A stretch of 40,751 nt of DNA. Source: a virus. Under the pieces are notes generated by a model that was not told where the DNA came from, searched no databases, and saw only the letters and a list, made by a program, of their open reading frames with translations. Shown piece by piece: positions 10,005 to 23,122 of this stretch (positions within the stretch are counted from its first letter, which is position 1; the number at the start of each line of letters is the position of its first letter). The DNA is taken from positions 1 through 40,751 of IMG/VR virus record IMGVR_UViG_3300022751_000024; one strand, given 5' to 3'. A program made the translations under genes and the position numbers.

Positions 10005-10385
10005 TTATTCAAAAGCCTTATAGTATGCAATCTTATCAAGATAATCTTTCTCAGTCCATTTAGTAAATATTCCTTTTTTCTTGTAAAGCTCCTTAGCAAT
10101 CTTTCCCAATCTTAAACTATATTCATATTGGTTTCCTCCTAAGTTTATATTGCAGTGATAGCATTGAGCATGCACATTATCCTCATCAAAGTATAATTCT
10201 ACTCCCCCTATTGCCTTGCTAATAAAATGCCCAGCATGCATACTTCCTCCCTCACCTGACCTTCCACACGTAAAACAGATAAACTTGTCTCTACGACGAA
10301 TATAGAGGCTAAATAGAGCCCATAATTTGCGCTTCAGAGTTGATATTTTTTTAGGACTTACTTTCTTGAGTTTTGTTTTTTTCAT
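10005..10385 (-). CDS. NinG-like recombination/HNH-type nuclease
   Basis: 126 residues from ATG 10385, chosen because it forms an ATGA overlap with the preceding methyltransferase stop; a start at 10418 would add 11 residues deep in that gene. Features typical of lambda NinG/Rap-type proteins are visible: a Lys-rich N-terminus, LWALFSLYIRRRD, CFTCG and CYHC zinc-binding pairs, HAGHFISK between them, and DNVHAQCYHCN. NinG (Rap) is a branch-specific nuclease in phage recombination. Here it would pair functionally with the ERF protein at 13808. Last gene of a four-gene operon. Confidence 0.75.
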   Translation of the reverse strand: MKKTKLKKVSPKKISTLKRKLWALFSLYIRRRDKFICFTCGRSGEGGSMHAGHFISKAIGGVELYFDEDNVHAQCYHCNINLGGNQYEYSLRLGKIAKELYKKKGIFTKWTEKDYLDKIAYYKAFE

Positions 10386-10918
10386 AATATTATATCTGAT
10401 TTTATTTCGTTCCCCCAACTATCCCAACCATCTACTTTTTCTCGTGCGAATAGCTCTACTCGGGGTAAATCACCTAATAATTGAATAATTTTTTCTCGTA
10501 CTTCACTTGGTTTTTTACTGTGAGCTTCAATAGGTGTCATCACAACAGAATGGACTCTAGCTGATATCCTTTTAGGTTTACCTTTTGTTGCCAATAAACA
10601 TAATTCTGCATTTGCTCTAGTCCAACGACCCATTCCCATAAAAGGTGTTGGTTTATTCTTATTTAATTTTACCCAAGTAAAAGCTACAGTCTTGTATTCA
10701 AATCCCCATGCTTTTATTAAATCAAAACACTGATTTAACTTTGGCATAGTAACCCACATGAATAATACACAATCATTATCAGCTAAACTTTTCACATCAA
10801 TATTTTCCATATCTTTTGGTTGCATAGTTTCATAGTGATTATGAACTCCTCTATCTCCGTCCATTGAAGAATTATATCCCCATGCTGGGTCTGCGTATAT
10901 TATGTTGTATTTTTTCAT
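10382..10918 (-). CDS. MT-A70 family adenine-N6 DNA methyltransferase
   Basis: 178 residues. DPAW at residues 10-13 is the catalytic DPPW-type motif. FMWVTMPKLNQC and the W-x-K/RANAELCLLATKGKP region, then HSKKPSEVREKI and RVELFARE near the end, are the usual conserved blocks of MT-A70 phage methyltransferases. Full length for the compact phage form. It would protect phage DNA from restriction or mark it. ATGA overlaps on both sides show translational coupling. Confidence 0.85.
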   Translation of the reverse strand: MKKYNIIYADPAWGYNSSMDGDRGVHNHYETMQPKDMENIDVKSLADNDCVLFMWVTMPKLNQCFDLIKAWGFEYKTVAFTWVKLNKNKPTPFMGMGRWTRANAELCLLATKGKPKRISARVHSVVMTPIEAHSKKPSEVREKIIQLLGDLPRVELFAREKVDGWDSWGNEIKSDIIL

Positions 10919-11359: not shown

Positions 11360-11384
11360 GGTAAGATTGAGTAGGTAAGATTGA
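11360..11384 (+). repeat. Tandem 11-bp direct repeat
   Basis: GGTAAGATTGA occurs at 11360-11370 and 11374-11384, separated by GTA. It abuts the outer stem of the ribozyme RNA. TAAGAT inside each copy equals the -10 box of the 17603 promoter, so this could be promoter or operator DNA; no clear -35 is spaced correctly. Confidence 0.7.
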
Positions 11385-11562
11385 AAATATATACCGTGGG
11401 TTACAAAGTTTAAATCCGACGAAAATTGAGTCTGTACTCGTAACATCTTGCCCACCTAAAACGGCTGAAGAGAGCTTTGAGCTTGAAACGTAGAAATACG
11501 TACCGCGGAGTGTCCCATGGTGGGGAATAACTGGACACCAACAGACTCACGGTATATATTTT
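11384..11562 (+). ncRNA. Large structured RNA enclosing a hammerhead ribozyme
   Basis: A 15-base perfect stem (11384-11398 with 11548-11562) closes the element. Inside it GAGTCTGT (11428-11435) pairs with ACAGACTC (11541-11548; they share one base at the edge), then CCCACC (11451-11456) with GGTGGG (11519-11524), and then the hammerhead core. An alternative GTGTCC/GGACAC hairpin (11510-11515, 11533-11538) would put GGTGGG in its loop, making a pseudoknot with CCCACC. Such a nest of perfect stems is very unlikely by chance and has no coding explanation. I know no RNA class matching the outer part. Confidence 0.75.
11462..11505 (+). ncRNA. Type I hammerhead self-cleaving ribozyme core
   Basis: In order: stem I CGG (11462-11464) pairing with CCG (11503-11505); invariant CUGAAGA (11465-11471, consensus CUGANGA); stem II of five pairs, GAGCU/AGCUU with a UUG loop (11472-11484); invariant GAAA (11485-11488); stem III, A15.1-U16.1 plus CGUA/UACG capped by a GAAA tetraloop; and the cleavage triplet GUA. 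Cleavage is predicted between 11502 and 11503. All core bases of the family consensus are present. The open stem is stem I, hence type I. Stem I continues after an internal loop into the 6-bp CCCACC/GGTGGG helix, where the usual loop contacts could form. Confidence 0.8.
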
Positions 11563-11593: not shown

Positions 11594-11623
11594 TTGACAA
11601 TTAAAAACAGGAGGGAGTATACT
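11594..11623 (+). promoter_or_regulatory. Rightward early promoter
   Basis: Perfect TTGACA (11594-11599), 18-base spacer, TATACT (11618-11623). Transcription would begin near 11630 and give a leader of about 330 bases before the first gene at 11962. This is the main candidate for driving the early region. Confidence 0.7.
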
Positions 11624-11629
11624 TAATAT

Positions 11630-11713
11630 GTTAGCTGAAAACTAACCCTAGAGTGTACATCTCACAAGAAACTTTTCTTGGGGTGGCCAGATATAATGTC
11701 TGGTATCTCTAGG
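11630..11713 (+). ncRNA. Structured 5' leader: hairpin plus three-way junction
   Basis: GTTAG/CTAAC hairpin (11630-11634, 11642-11646), then CCTAGAG (11647-11653) with CTCTAGG (11707-11713) closing two hairpins: CAAGAA/TTCTTG (11665-11670, 11675-11680) and CCAGA/TCTGG (11687-11691, 11699-11703). It sits exactly at the predicted 5' end of the early transcript and is followed by a T-rich stretch (11720-11728), so it may control elongation or stability. No known riboswitch consensus was recognised. Confidence 0.5.
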
Positions 11714-11784
11714 AAAGGTTTTTCTTTTAATACTGCATACACGTACAACTAGCGCCATGAACGTATATGTTTACCCTCTATATT

Positions 11785-11875
11785 AAGCAGGTATAGCTGG
11801 AGAGTCTGTGGCTAAGAAGAATCTCAACATATAAAGAGAAAATTCTTCAGTTAAACAACTGTATTTCTACTGCTT
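11785..11875 (+). ncRNA. Second multi-branched element in the leader
   Basis: AAGCAG (11785-11790) pairs with CTGCTT (11870-11875) and encloses a TAGC/GCTA arm, a long arm (GAAGAAT + CTC with GAG + ATTCTTC, 11816-11848) and CAGTT/AACTG (11848-11861; one base shared). It looks cloverleaf-like but lacks the tRNA T-loop, D-loop and acceptor features. Confidence 0.35.
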
Positions 11876-11896
11876 GAGTTTAGTGATAATCTATAT

Positions 11897-11929
11897 GTGA
11901 GCTAGCGCTCACACCAAGCTAAAGCTTGG
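11897..11929 (+). promoter_or_regulatory. Tandem perfect hairpins before the first early gene
   Basis: GTGAGC-TAGC-GCTCAC (11897-11912) and CCAAGC-TAAA-GCTTGG (11914-11929), each with a 6-bp stem and a 4-base loop, one base apart, then CTCTTTAAT. The T-run is poor for a strong terminator. They may be an attenuator, an RNA-processing site or an mRNA-stabilising end. Confidence 0.55.
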
Positions 11930-11961
11930 CTCTTTAATAAAAGATAATTAAAATCAAATCT

Positions 11962-12638: not shown

Positions 12639-13193
12639 ATGAAAGGTAAAAGACCATGTAAAAGGGGAAACATATTTGAAAGGGATAAGACGGGACACTG
12701 TCTATGTCAAGATTGTAAACTATATAGATATAAAGTAAGTATTAGCAACCCTAATACAAAATTGTACAGACAAAAATGGAAACGAGATAATAAAGACTTA
12801 GTTTATGGATATGCTAAAAAGTGGAATGAAAATAATAAAGAGAAGAGAAAAGGTATTGTTGAATCTTGGAGAAAGAGAAATACAGATAAGGTTGCAATAA
12901 TTAATTCAAAGGCTGGTAAAAAATGGCATAATAATAACAAAGATAAAAGAAGTGTTATAGGAGCAAGAAGAAGAGCATCACTATTAAATCAGATAGATAT
13001 ACATGCTGATAATGAGAAAATAAGGTGGTTTTATAAAGAGGCTAAAAGATTAACGAAAGAAACAGGTATACCACACGAGGTTGACCATATAATTCCACTA
13101 CAAGGAAAAGAAAAAAGAGGAATGCATACACATACAAATTTACAAATACTAACTAGACAAGAAAATCGTTCTAAGAAAAATAAAATATGCTAA
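12639..13193 (+). CDS. HNH endonuclease
   Basis: 184 residues. The N-terminal part is a Lys/Trp/Asn-rich DNA-binding region with two cysteine pairs. Near residues 145-172 is the HNH core: HEVDHIIPLQG, then HTHTNLQIL and QENRSKKNK. It starts two bases after the replication-associated gene and overlaps the next gene by 7 bases. Free-standing HNH enzymes of this sort are often homing nucleases; no intron is visible around it. Confidence 0.75.
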   Translation: MKGKRPCKRGNIFERDKTGHCLCQDCKLYRYKVSISNPNTKLYRQKWKRDNKDLVYGYAKKWNENNKEKRKGIVESWRKRNTDKVAIINSKAGKKWHNNNKDKRSVIGARRRASLLNQIDIHADNEKIRWFYKEAKRLTKETGIPHEVDHIIPLQGKEKRGMHTHTNLQILTRQENRSKKNKIC

Positions 13194-13744
13194 AAATATT
13201 GATTGCGTGTGAAGAAAGCCAGGCAGTTTGCAAGGCATTTAGAAAGAAAGGACATGAAGCATATTCATGCGATGTATTGCCTTGCAGTGGAGGTCACCCA
13301 GAATGGCATATACAAGGTGATGCGATTAAGGAAGCGTATAGAGGAAAATACGATATGATGATTGCTCATCCGCCATGCACGTATTTATCTGTTAGTGGTG
13401 CACGTTGGTTTAAAGACAGACAACAAGAACAAAAACTTGCACTTGATTTTGTCCATAAACTTCTAAATGCACCTATAGAAAATATAGCACTTGAAAATCC
13501 TATAAGTGTTATCAGCTCTAAGATAAGGAAACCAGACCAGATAATACAACCTTGGCAGTTTGGGCATGGAGAAACCAAGGCGACATGCTTATGGTTAAAA
13601 AATTTACCAAAGTTAGAACCAACTAATATCGTTGAGGGAAGAGAAAATAAAATACATAATATGCCACCAAGCAAAGACAGAGGAAAATTAAGAAGTAAGA
13701 CATTTCAAGGGATAGCTGATGCTATGGCTGAACAATGGGGATAA
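13187..13744 (+). CDS. Cytosine-C5 DNA methyltransferase-like protein
   Basis: 185 residues. LIACEESQ (residues 5-12) occupies the SAM-binding motif I position; HPPCTYLS contains the PC catalytic motif with Cys64; ALENP (101-105) matches the ENP/ENV motif. It is about half the length of a full C5 methyltransferase and has no recognisable target-recognition domain. It belongs to a compact phage group usually annotated as DNA cytosine methyltransferase, with activity not certain. Last gene before a new promoter. Confidence 0.65.
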   Translation: MLKILIACEESQAVCKAFRKKGHEAYSCDVLPCSGGHPEWHIQGDAIKEAYRGKYDMMIAHPPCTYLSVSGARWFKDRQQEQKLALDFVHKLLNAPIENIALENPISVISSKIRKPDQIIQPWQFGHGETKATCLWLKNLPKLEPTNIVEGRENKIHNMPPSKDRGKLRSKTFQGIADAMAEQWG

Positions 13745-21229: not shown

Positions 21230-21455
21230 CTTTGACAACAGTAAGTGCTTGAGGGGGTATCTTCATGATTTCAAGATAGTTGGAGAGTATGGGACTCATA
21301 CAAGAGAACGATGTACATATTGTCGTAAAGAAATGATGTTTAGTAAGCAATCAGGCAGAAATACATCACTACGATATCTTTCATATCATATTAAAAACGC
21401 TCTTACTCCACAACACTACCTGTTTTATTTACACTATCCACAATATAAAAAATAA
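21216..21455 (+). CDS. Small Cys-containing protein between groES and groEL (79 aa)
   Basis: Basic, Tyr-rich protein with a CTYC pair (about residues 33-36) and one further Cys. It overlaps groES by 14 bases, and its stop overlaps the groEL start. It may assist the chaperonin or be an unrelated passenger. Confidence 0.55.
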   Translation: MKYYSFDNSKCLRGYLHDFKIVGEYGTHTRERCTYCRKEMMFSKQSGRNTSLRYLSYHIKNALTPQHYLFYLHYPQYKK

Positions 21456-23122
21456 TGAATAACGTAACACAAGGAACAAAAGCTATACAAGGAATGATAG
21501 ACGGTATCAAGCTTGTAACTAATGCTATACGACCTACATATGGTCATAATGGTATCAACGTAGTAGTAGAAGCAGACCGATACCCATTTCACAAGGTAGC
21601 TAACGATGCTCAAACTATCATACAAGCTATTGAAACAGAAAACCCAGTACAAAATCGAGGACTTGGTTTCTTAAAAGAACTATCTGATAAGCAAAATGCA
21701 ACTTCGGGAGATGGTCGTAAAACCACATGTATCATAGCTGAAACCATACTTGAGGAGGGTTTTAAATCAGAACTTAAAGGAATGAACTTAAAGCGTGAAC
21801 TAGACGCTCTTATTCCTGTTATAGAGCAGAAGATTGACGAACATAAACGAGTTATAGATATAGATGAAGTACACAAGGTGGCAACAATTGCAGGTGAATC
21901 AGAATCAATCGGTAACCTTATAGGCTCAATCTACAAGACGATAGGTAAAGATGGAGTTATAACTGTAGAGGGTTCAGGTACATATGACGATGGTATCAAG
22001 TATATAGATGGTGTAAGGTTCAATGATTGTGGTTTCTTAAGTCCACTCATGGCTCACGATAAAGACTCTGACAAACACGGAGATACAGGTTCAAAGAAGA
22101 ATGAGAATGGTATGGAAACTATGGGAGATAAAGTTCTTACTAAAGCAGTCTATGAAAATCCACTCATCTTAGTAACGTATCAGAAAATGGAGAAGCAAGA
22201 ACACTTTGATACTATCCTTGGACTTATGGATAAGCACGGTAAAAAAGACCTTATTATCTTCACTCATGATATGGATAGTCGAGTGGCCCAAGTCCTACTA
22301 GACACCCATAAGCAAGAGATGTTCAACATTTGTATTATCAAAGCACCATCAGTATTCAGAATGGAAGTATTTGAAGACTTCGCAAAGGTAACAGGAGCTA
22401 CAGTTATATCAGACATCACAGGACTGGACTTAGCAGACTTGCCTATAGACCTTTCATTTTGTGGTACATGTTATAAAATTATAGTAGACAAGAACGAAAC
22501 AACTATTATCGGAACTCAAGATGTATCAGAACATATAGCCGAACTGAAAGCACAGAACACAGAACTAGCAAACATGCGTATTAAATGGCTATCAACAAAG
22601 ACAGCTGTACTTAAACTTGGAGCAAATAACGAGAGTGAGCTATCATACAGACGATTGAAGTGTGAAGATGCTGTAAATGCCTCACGATTAGCCCTACAAG
22701 ACGGCGTAGTGCAAGGAGGGGGTATAACCCTGTACAAAGTAGCTCACGAACTTCCAGACACTGTAGCAGGCGATATATTGCGAACGGCACTTATTGCTCC
22801 AGTATGCCAGATTATGACGAATGCGGGAGAAGCAAAAAAACCACTTATGATGTTTTCAGGAGCAGATAAACTAAAACTCAAAGATATAAATACTACAGGT
22901 GAAATAATAATGTTACCTGAAGGAGTAGAAATGAAGACACTACCTGACTACATGTTTGATATACCTGATACATTTGGAGATAATGTCCTTGACGCTTCAC
23001 TTGTAACTAAGAACGCTATTCGCAATGCAATATCACTCGCTTCAACAGTCCTTACTACAGGAGTAGTTATCACACTACCTCCAAAGGAGAAAGAATTACC
23101 AAATAAACCATTTACAATATAA
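21455..23122 (+). CDS. groEL: GroEL-like group I chaperonin (phage-encoded)
   Basis: 555 residues, close to the usual 548. Nucleotide-site residues are kept: KVANDAQ with Asp51, SGDGRKTT with Asp86 and KCEDAVNAS with Asp405 (E. coli 52, 87, 398), and GGG at 421-423. The usual GDGTTT is GDGRKTT. The apical domain carries an insertion of about 20 residues (roughly 199-232), rich in Asp, Lys and Asn. The C-terminus lacks the GGM repeat tail. It looks active as an ATPase. Its place directly ahead of terminase and capsid genes suggests folding of structural proteins. Phage GroEL genes are rare but known (for example Pseudomonas phage EL). Confidence 0.9.
   Translation: MNNVTQGTKAIQGMIDGIKLVTNAIRPTYGHNGINVVVEADRYPFHKVANDAQTIIQAIETENPVQNRGLGFLKELSDKQNATSGDGRKTTCIIAETILEEGFKSELKGMNLKRELDALIPVIEQKIDEHKRVIDIDEVHKVATIAGESESIGNLIGSIYKTIGKDGVITVEGSGTYDDGIKYIDGVRFNDCGFLSPLMAHDKDSDKHGDTGSKKNENGMETMGDKVLTKAVYENPLILVTYQKMEKQEHFDTILGLMDKHGKKDLIIFTHDMDSRVAQVLLDTHKQEMFNICIIKAPSVFRMEVFEDFAKVTGATVISDITGLDLADLPIDLSFCGTCYKIIVDKNETTIIGTQDVSEHIAELKAQNTELANMRIKWLSTKTAVLKLGANNESELSYRRLKCEDAVNASRLALQDGVVQGGGITLYKVAHELPDTVAGDILRTALIAPVCQIMTNAGEAKKPLMMFSGADKLKLKDINTTGEIIMLPEGVEMKTLPDYMFDIPDTFGDNVLDASLVTKNAIRNAISLASTVLTTGVVITLPPKEKELPNKPFTI

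Follow-up and report, generated by a model that had tools for sequence, protein, structure and literature searches.

A phage RNA of two interlocked halves, found in two permuted orders and with an optional hammerhead ribozyme

What is the larger RNA that surrounds a hammerhead at positions 11384-11562 of the window, and what does the ribozyme do for it? The window is the whole stretch of DNA that was analysed, 40,751 nucleotides from a virus (IMG/VR virus record IMGVR_UViG_3300022751_000024, positions 1 to 40,751). The phage is tailed, with genes for a terminase, a major head protein and GroEL; the GroEL-like chaperonin is phage-encoded at 21455-23122 (PHROG match, E = 8e-72). On one side of the RNA is an MT-A70 methyltransferase gene on the minus strand and on the other are small plus-strand genes, ~850 bases separating the two; the region of the element folded better than 200 of 200 shuffles (z = -4.36). 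DNA methyltransferase-like genes flank the RNA at 10382-10918 and 13187-13744, one of the MT-A70 family and the other of another PHROG family. Just 3' of the RNA there is a strong sigma-70-like site (TTGACA-18-TATACT, 11594-11623). The 362 nt at 11600-11961, with a long hairpin near 11666-11722, also outfolded all shuffles (z = -4.84) and are possibly a second structured RNA.

A preliminary description of this DNA had three stems nesting around the ribozyme. The perfect 15-bp stem that it proposed (joint D) is present in the sequence, and the 6-bp stem or pseudoknot through GGTGGG (helix B) is real, one of its strands lying within the loop of hairpin A (Table 1). The stem described as 8 bp (helix C) also corresponds to real pairing, but it measures 7 bp, plus 2 nt in common with the outer stem. 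A fourth helix, E, had been missed. Rather than simply nesting around the ribozyme, the stems form two halves, Y and X, each a hairpin with a tail, which interlock through two pseudoknots, and the 15-bp stem is not the sole closure of the RNA, being one of two equivalent joints (D and D').

Table 1. Positions of the RNA element and its parts in the window
Feature	Position	Strand	Remarks
Whole RNA element	11384-11562	+	Order Y half - hammerhead - X half
Joint D, 5' strand	11384-11398	+	AAAATATATACCGTG; 15-bp closing stem; contains conserved CGUG opening half Y
Helix E, 5' strand	11400-11404	+	GTTAC; partner 11440-11444
Helix C, loop strand	11429-11435	+	AGTCTGT, in half-Y hairpin; partner 11541-11547 in half-X tail; first pseudoknot
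Helix E, 3' strand	11440-11444	+	GTAAC
Conserved AUCUUG	11445-11450	+	From helix E to helix B; AUCU is a search anchor
Helix B, tail strand	11451-11456	+	CCCACC, half Y; partner 11519-11524; second pseudoknot
Type I hammerhead	11462-11505	+	Inserted at joint D'; core, triplet, stems
Hammerhead stem I	11462-11464 / 11503-11505		CGG / CCG, 3 bp
Hammerhead core	11465-11471, 11485-11488		CTGAAGA, GAAA
Hammerhead stem II	11472-11484		5 bp with one G-U pair
Hammerhead stem III	11488-11501		5 bp
Cleavage triplet	11500-11502		GTA; predicted cut 11502^11503, just 5' of X
CGCGGA	11504-11509	+	Conserved 5' start of half X and cleaved strand of hammerhead stem I
Helix A, 5' strand	11510-11515	+	GTGTCC; partner 11533-11538
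Helix B, loop strand	11519-11524	+	GGTGGG, inside loop of hairpin A
Conserved GAAUAACU	11525-11532	+	Half X; search anchor
Helix A, 3' strand	11533-11538	+	GGACAC
Helix C, tail strand	11541-11547	+	ACAGACT, half X
Joint D, 3' strand	11548-11562	+	CACGGTATATATTTT; 15-bp closing stem

A distant BLAST search from the window gave a 50-nt match to Pectobacterium/Dickeya phages, at whose locus the same pieces stand in a different order and the hammerhead is written differently. Patterns built from the conserved blocks were run against phage contigs, and a parser based on pairing returned at least 124 distinct copies besides the window; figures given below out of 124 refer to the copies among the matches listed, the window not being counted. 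The hosts include Enterobacteria, Pseudomonas, Mycobacterium, Arthrobacter and Microcystis, through phages or prophages, and many copies come from uncultured phages. Annotated phages of Enterobacter, Arthrobacter, Mycobacterium and Microcystis carry copies, and a Streptomyces phage gave a partial match. Among complete E. coli genomes, 15 of 5,426 had a copy. Bacterial chromosomes outside prophages, searched in 274 sampled genomes, yielded only the already known Pseudomonas genome, and a search of plasmids gave no match. The retrieval anchors were GAATAACT-like and CATCT-like sequences, which partly accounts for the invariance of the anchor letters but not for the helices. A covariance model built from 18 copies that lack the hammerhead returned further loci, and a model made from hammerhead-less relatives only recovered both halves of the window element (X half, E = 6e-9; Y half, E = 0.009).

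Half Y consists of CGUGG, E5, the loop strand C3, E3, AUCUNG and B3, and half X of CGYGGA, A5, the loop strand B5, GAAUAACU, A3, a linker and C5. Helices A and E are self-closing, B joins the X loop to the Y tail and C joins the Y loop to the X tail; these two cross-pairings interlock the halves. The four 6-bp helices were paired in 97-100% of alignment cells. The preliminary description had proposed a covariation check on the outer stems in relatives, and had held that its larger RNA would fail if relatives kept the hammerhead with no compensatory changes there. All four helices covaried strongly: in a weighted mutual-information scan of 124 sequences and 102 columns, the 17 highest-scoring pairs all fell within them. 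Pairing at fixed offsets in 126 anchor-only copies reached 99.6% for A, 99.1% for B and 97.2% for E, compared to 78, 79 and 68% with shuffled partners. With helix C placed in each sequence by complementarity, 111 of the 124 copies reached 7 bp or more, compared to 8% of shuffles. Taken separately, both orders and the hammerhead-less set each had the helices, with pair types that vary. Of the 25 pairs in a model alignment of 18 sequences that lack the hammerhead, 18 had changed on both sides, and no shuffle reached the covariation score. Unpaired positions beside the helices are conserved as well, and every aligned relative, whether or not it has a hammerhead, begins half X with CGYGGA. The interlocked fold of two halves is shown by this comparison of sequences.

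The two halves occur in two orders. Y-(hammerhead)-X, the order of the window, was found in 100 further copies, and hammerhead-X-Y in 24. Joint D forms the outer end of the RNA in the first order; the second has its end at D', with D as a hairpin inside the RNA. On the sequence evidence, the two orders are a natural circular permutation. Order switches 6 times on a poorly resolved tree, compared to at least 18 times in shuffles. One locus holds two head-to-tail tandem copies 14 nt apart, neither with a hammerhead (L060:237-334 and 349-442), and such a tandem duplication is a natural intermediate for circular permutation. Joint D is a closed hairpin in most hammerhead-X-Y copies. Among the 98 scorable Y-hammerhead-X copies, 40 had a joint D of at least 10 bp and the remainder were little above chance, so that a long joint D is not a universal feature. 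Within this order, the association between a long D and the presence of a hammerhead was not significant (p = 0.15).

By every sequence feature tested, the inner part is a hammerhead of type I, and self-cleavage is predicted. Stems II and III are closed by loops and stem I is open, and an A15.1-U16.1 pair accompanies the NUH triplet, as in type I. The 100 hammerhead copies all have an NUH triplet, with U16.1 and H17 in every one, and 97 of them have the canonical core CUGANGA; across the same set, stem I pairs 1.1 and 1.4 vary in a compensatory manner. No hammerhead family reached the Rfam gathering score in the window, and one relative (L052) gave a weak sub-threshold Rfam hammerhead match. 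The core reads UUGAUAA in L029 and L054 (Mycobacterium phage Gaia), where the paired C3U and G8A changes would preserve the 3-8 base pair. At positions 10.1-11.1, beside the core, the usual G-C is replaced by A-A in 26 and by U-U in 10 of 100 hammerhead relatives. The stem I strand that would be cut is the same CGYGG that starts half X in every copy, including those that lack a hammerhead. The hammerhead would thus take up a strand of the domain itself, and cutting would free that strand.

No recognisable hammerhead was present in 24 of the 124 copies, which indicates that the fold is independent of the ribozyme. Most of these copies have a link of 6-9 nt at D', and four have other links of 20-25 nt. 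Degenerate remnants of a hammerhead are kept in L139 and L141. In L183 and L189, a related insert with GAGATACCACAT replaces the hammerhead and is perhaps another element at joint D'. L163 shares the expanded hairpin-E loop of the window and has an 18-bp joint D and no hammerhead. The presence of the hammerhead switches ~19 times on the poorly resolved tree, which is near random.

The genomic setting of the copies was not random with respect to tRNA genes. A tRNA lay within 300 nt of 38 of the 124 copies, compared to 9% expected at random positions in the same loci, and in all 38 the RNA was on the same strand as the tRNA. In the other 86 no tRNA was detected within 300 nt, many of the contigs being fragments. 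The packing can be tight: in L039, L092 and L137 the RNA core is separated from the preceding tRNA by as few as 2 nt and from the following one by 5-7 nt. The hammerhead was missing from 9 of 12 copies where the locus had at least seven tRNAs, compared to 15 of 112 at other loci (Fisher p = 1.4e-5), a correlation that may be confounded by lineage, as the large-array loci come mainly from large phages. Some loci with the RNA also have a tmRNA, a permuted tmRNA (L009, L145) or GOLLD (L145); the permuted tmRNAs and the GOLLD RNA in these contigs are at L009:6426-6770, L145:12697-13051 and L145:4754-5180. Stand-alone copies had promoter-like sites just upstream in 22% of cases against 8% of shuffles, and were followed by 16 T-runs where 6 were expected.

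From the structure set out above, we infer a function. The reading that we prefer, which we regard as about evenly poised between right and wrong, is that of a discrete small trans-acting phage RNA that would be produced along with the phage tRNAs or come from a late transcript of its own, the hammerhead opening D' in the latter setting. In tRNA arrays, tRNA-processing enzymes would release the RNA at D, and D' would be a tight loop. Outside arrays, the transcript would be its own or that of an operon; a long stem or hairpin would often close D, and D' would be opened by the hammerhead. Before the cut, the conserved CGYGGA would be bound up in hammerhead stem I, and cleavage would free it. The preliminary suggestion that the ribozyme releases the ends of a stable RNA survives in a modified form: the predicted cut would open D' and leave a nicked, base-paired RNA of two pieces, held together by helices B and C and, where present, D. 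After cutting, Y-hammerhead-X copies with a paired D and hammerhead-X-Y copies would have the same architecture and the same free 5' end at CGYGGA. Against the reading count the 86 copies with no tRNA detected within 300 nt and the stand-alone copies L163, L126 and L200, whose sealed D and missing hammerhead show that an open D' is not obligatory. That the core is conserved in phages whose hosts are unrelated suggests a cellular partner that is itself conserved, and on account of the tRNA-array setting our best guess is that this partner acts in translation or tRNA metabolism. Tentatively, and with rather less than even confidence, we would place this trans-acting family in a phage-encoded translation kit together with tRNAs and tmRNA, with the hammerhead nicking one permutation into the architecture of the other.

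Neighbouring genes offer some support for a different role, in which the element acts in cis: the hammerhead would cut a polycistronic transcript, and the interlocked domain would cap the new ends and stabilise the downstream mRNA or tRNA precursor. The shared strand of the tRNA-adjacent copies is consistent with this. In one E. coli genome that we inspected, the RNA lies in a lambdoid prophage with the Q antiterminator gene on one side and holin-lysozyme genes on the other, and in Pectobacterium phage Pappous tRNA-Met and the genes for scaffold and capsid lie downstream of it. Several copies, on several contigs, stand directly before a start codon. However, clustering and PHROG/Pfam scans of the flanking proteins gave no common family, only scattered HNH endonucleases and terminases, which argues against a cis-regulator of one gene family; flanking ORFs occur in every strand orientation, hammerhead-less copies would not cut, and the pieces of the window RNA would remain joined through D, C and B. 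We consider such a cis-acting element unlikely, though it retains some weight. In a second E. coli genome the RNA is flanked by portal and terminase genes. The 25 nt just 5' of the RNA in phage Pappous (L002:1442-1466) are identical in many Salmonella phages.

A natural allosteric ribozyme, whose domain would bind a metabolite or protein and control hammerhead cleavage, we regard as improbable. A coupling between domain and hammerhead could run through the conserved unpaired positions beside the helices and the common CGYGG strand, but retention of the domain in the 24 copies that have no hammerhead argues against cleavage-sensing as its main role, and neither the near-random distribution of the hammerhead on the tree nor the inconsistent downstream gene favours such a switch. 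Hammerheads gain speed through stem I contacts, and the outer part could in principle be a mere peripheral stabiliser of this kind. The existence of the domain without a hammerhead makes this very improbable, as does an apparent hammerhead without the domain in Cellulophaga phage phi18:3, where model R1 found no trace of the outer domain. The sequence concerned, L056:1000-1050, reads as a stand-alone hammerhead and is situated among a series of small genes 5' of ardA. Finally, some of the statistics are inflated by the placement of helix C by complementarity and by the use of conserved anchors in the search, but chance or an alignment artefact is refuted by the mutual-information ranking, the fixed-offset pairing of A, B and E in anchor-only copies with its shuffled-partner controls, the 18-sequence shuffle test and the recovery of the window by a model made without it, and we give it practically no credence.

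The family combines unusually clear covariation and an interlocked fold with two permuted orders, and its ribozyme is optional, being usually present in stand-alone copies and usually missing in dense tRNA arrays. To the question of what hammerheads do in phages, this RNA would offer a testable answer: the maturation of a separate structured RNA. The copies in E. coli lambdoid prophages put the question within reach of ordinary genetics.

The proposal that the hammerhead sits within a larger RNA of an unrecognised class held up, as relatives keep the core and no Rfam 15 family, at the gathering score or at relaxed E-values, covered the element or its outer domain, whether in the window or in those relatives that were scanned. 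The literature that we searched, in which subscription journals and preprints were thinly covered, held no description of the RNA, and the family, though widespread, is apparently undescribed. Small stable RNAs are annotated in a phage tRNA cluster as T4 RNA C and RNA D (~120-140 nt), but model R1, run unfiltered on the T4 tRNA cluster, gave no match at an E-value of 5 or better. GOLLD and ROOL, the ornate RNAs (PMC12286853), are also structured phage RNAs and are far larger than this one. Neither Rfam model matched at the element (RF02032 for GOLLD), and the GOLLD of L145 lies at other coordinates without overlap. The element has no tmRNA features, and Rfam tmRNA matches fall at other coordinates; still, permuted two-piece tmRNA, which co-occurs with it in L009 and L145, likewise has a circularly permuted gene order and a mature RNA of two pieces. 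Type I hammerheads (Perreault et al. 2011, PMC3088659) share with the inner part CUGANGA, GAAA, an NUH triplet and three stems with stem I open; here, they are embedded in a conserved double-pseudoknot domain that also exists without the ribozyme. In the non-circular hammerhead permutants of Eckert et al. (PMC10085705) the ribozyme itself is permuted, whereas here it is the surrounding RNA. An HDV-like or theta fold was rejected, since the helix order here, E(1,3) C(2,8) B(4,6) A(5,7), differs from the nested double-pseudoknot order of HDV, with P3 between the 5' strand of P2 and the 3' strand of P1, and no Rfam HDV match was found. The theta ribozymes (HDV-like, PMC10879173), for which cutting of tRNA 3' trailers was proposed, are nevertheless the nearest precedent: they too are self-cleaving, occur in phages and adjoin tRNA genes. 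They belong to another ribozyme class, and in the RNA described here the predicted cut falls inside a separate structured RNA.
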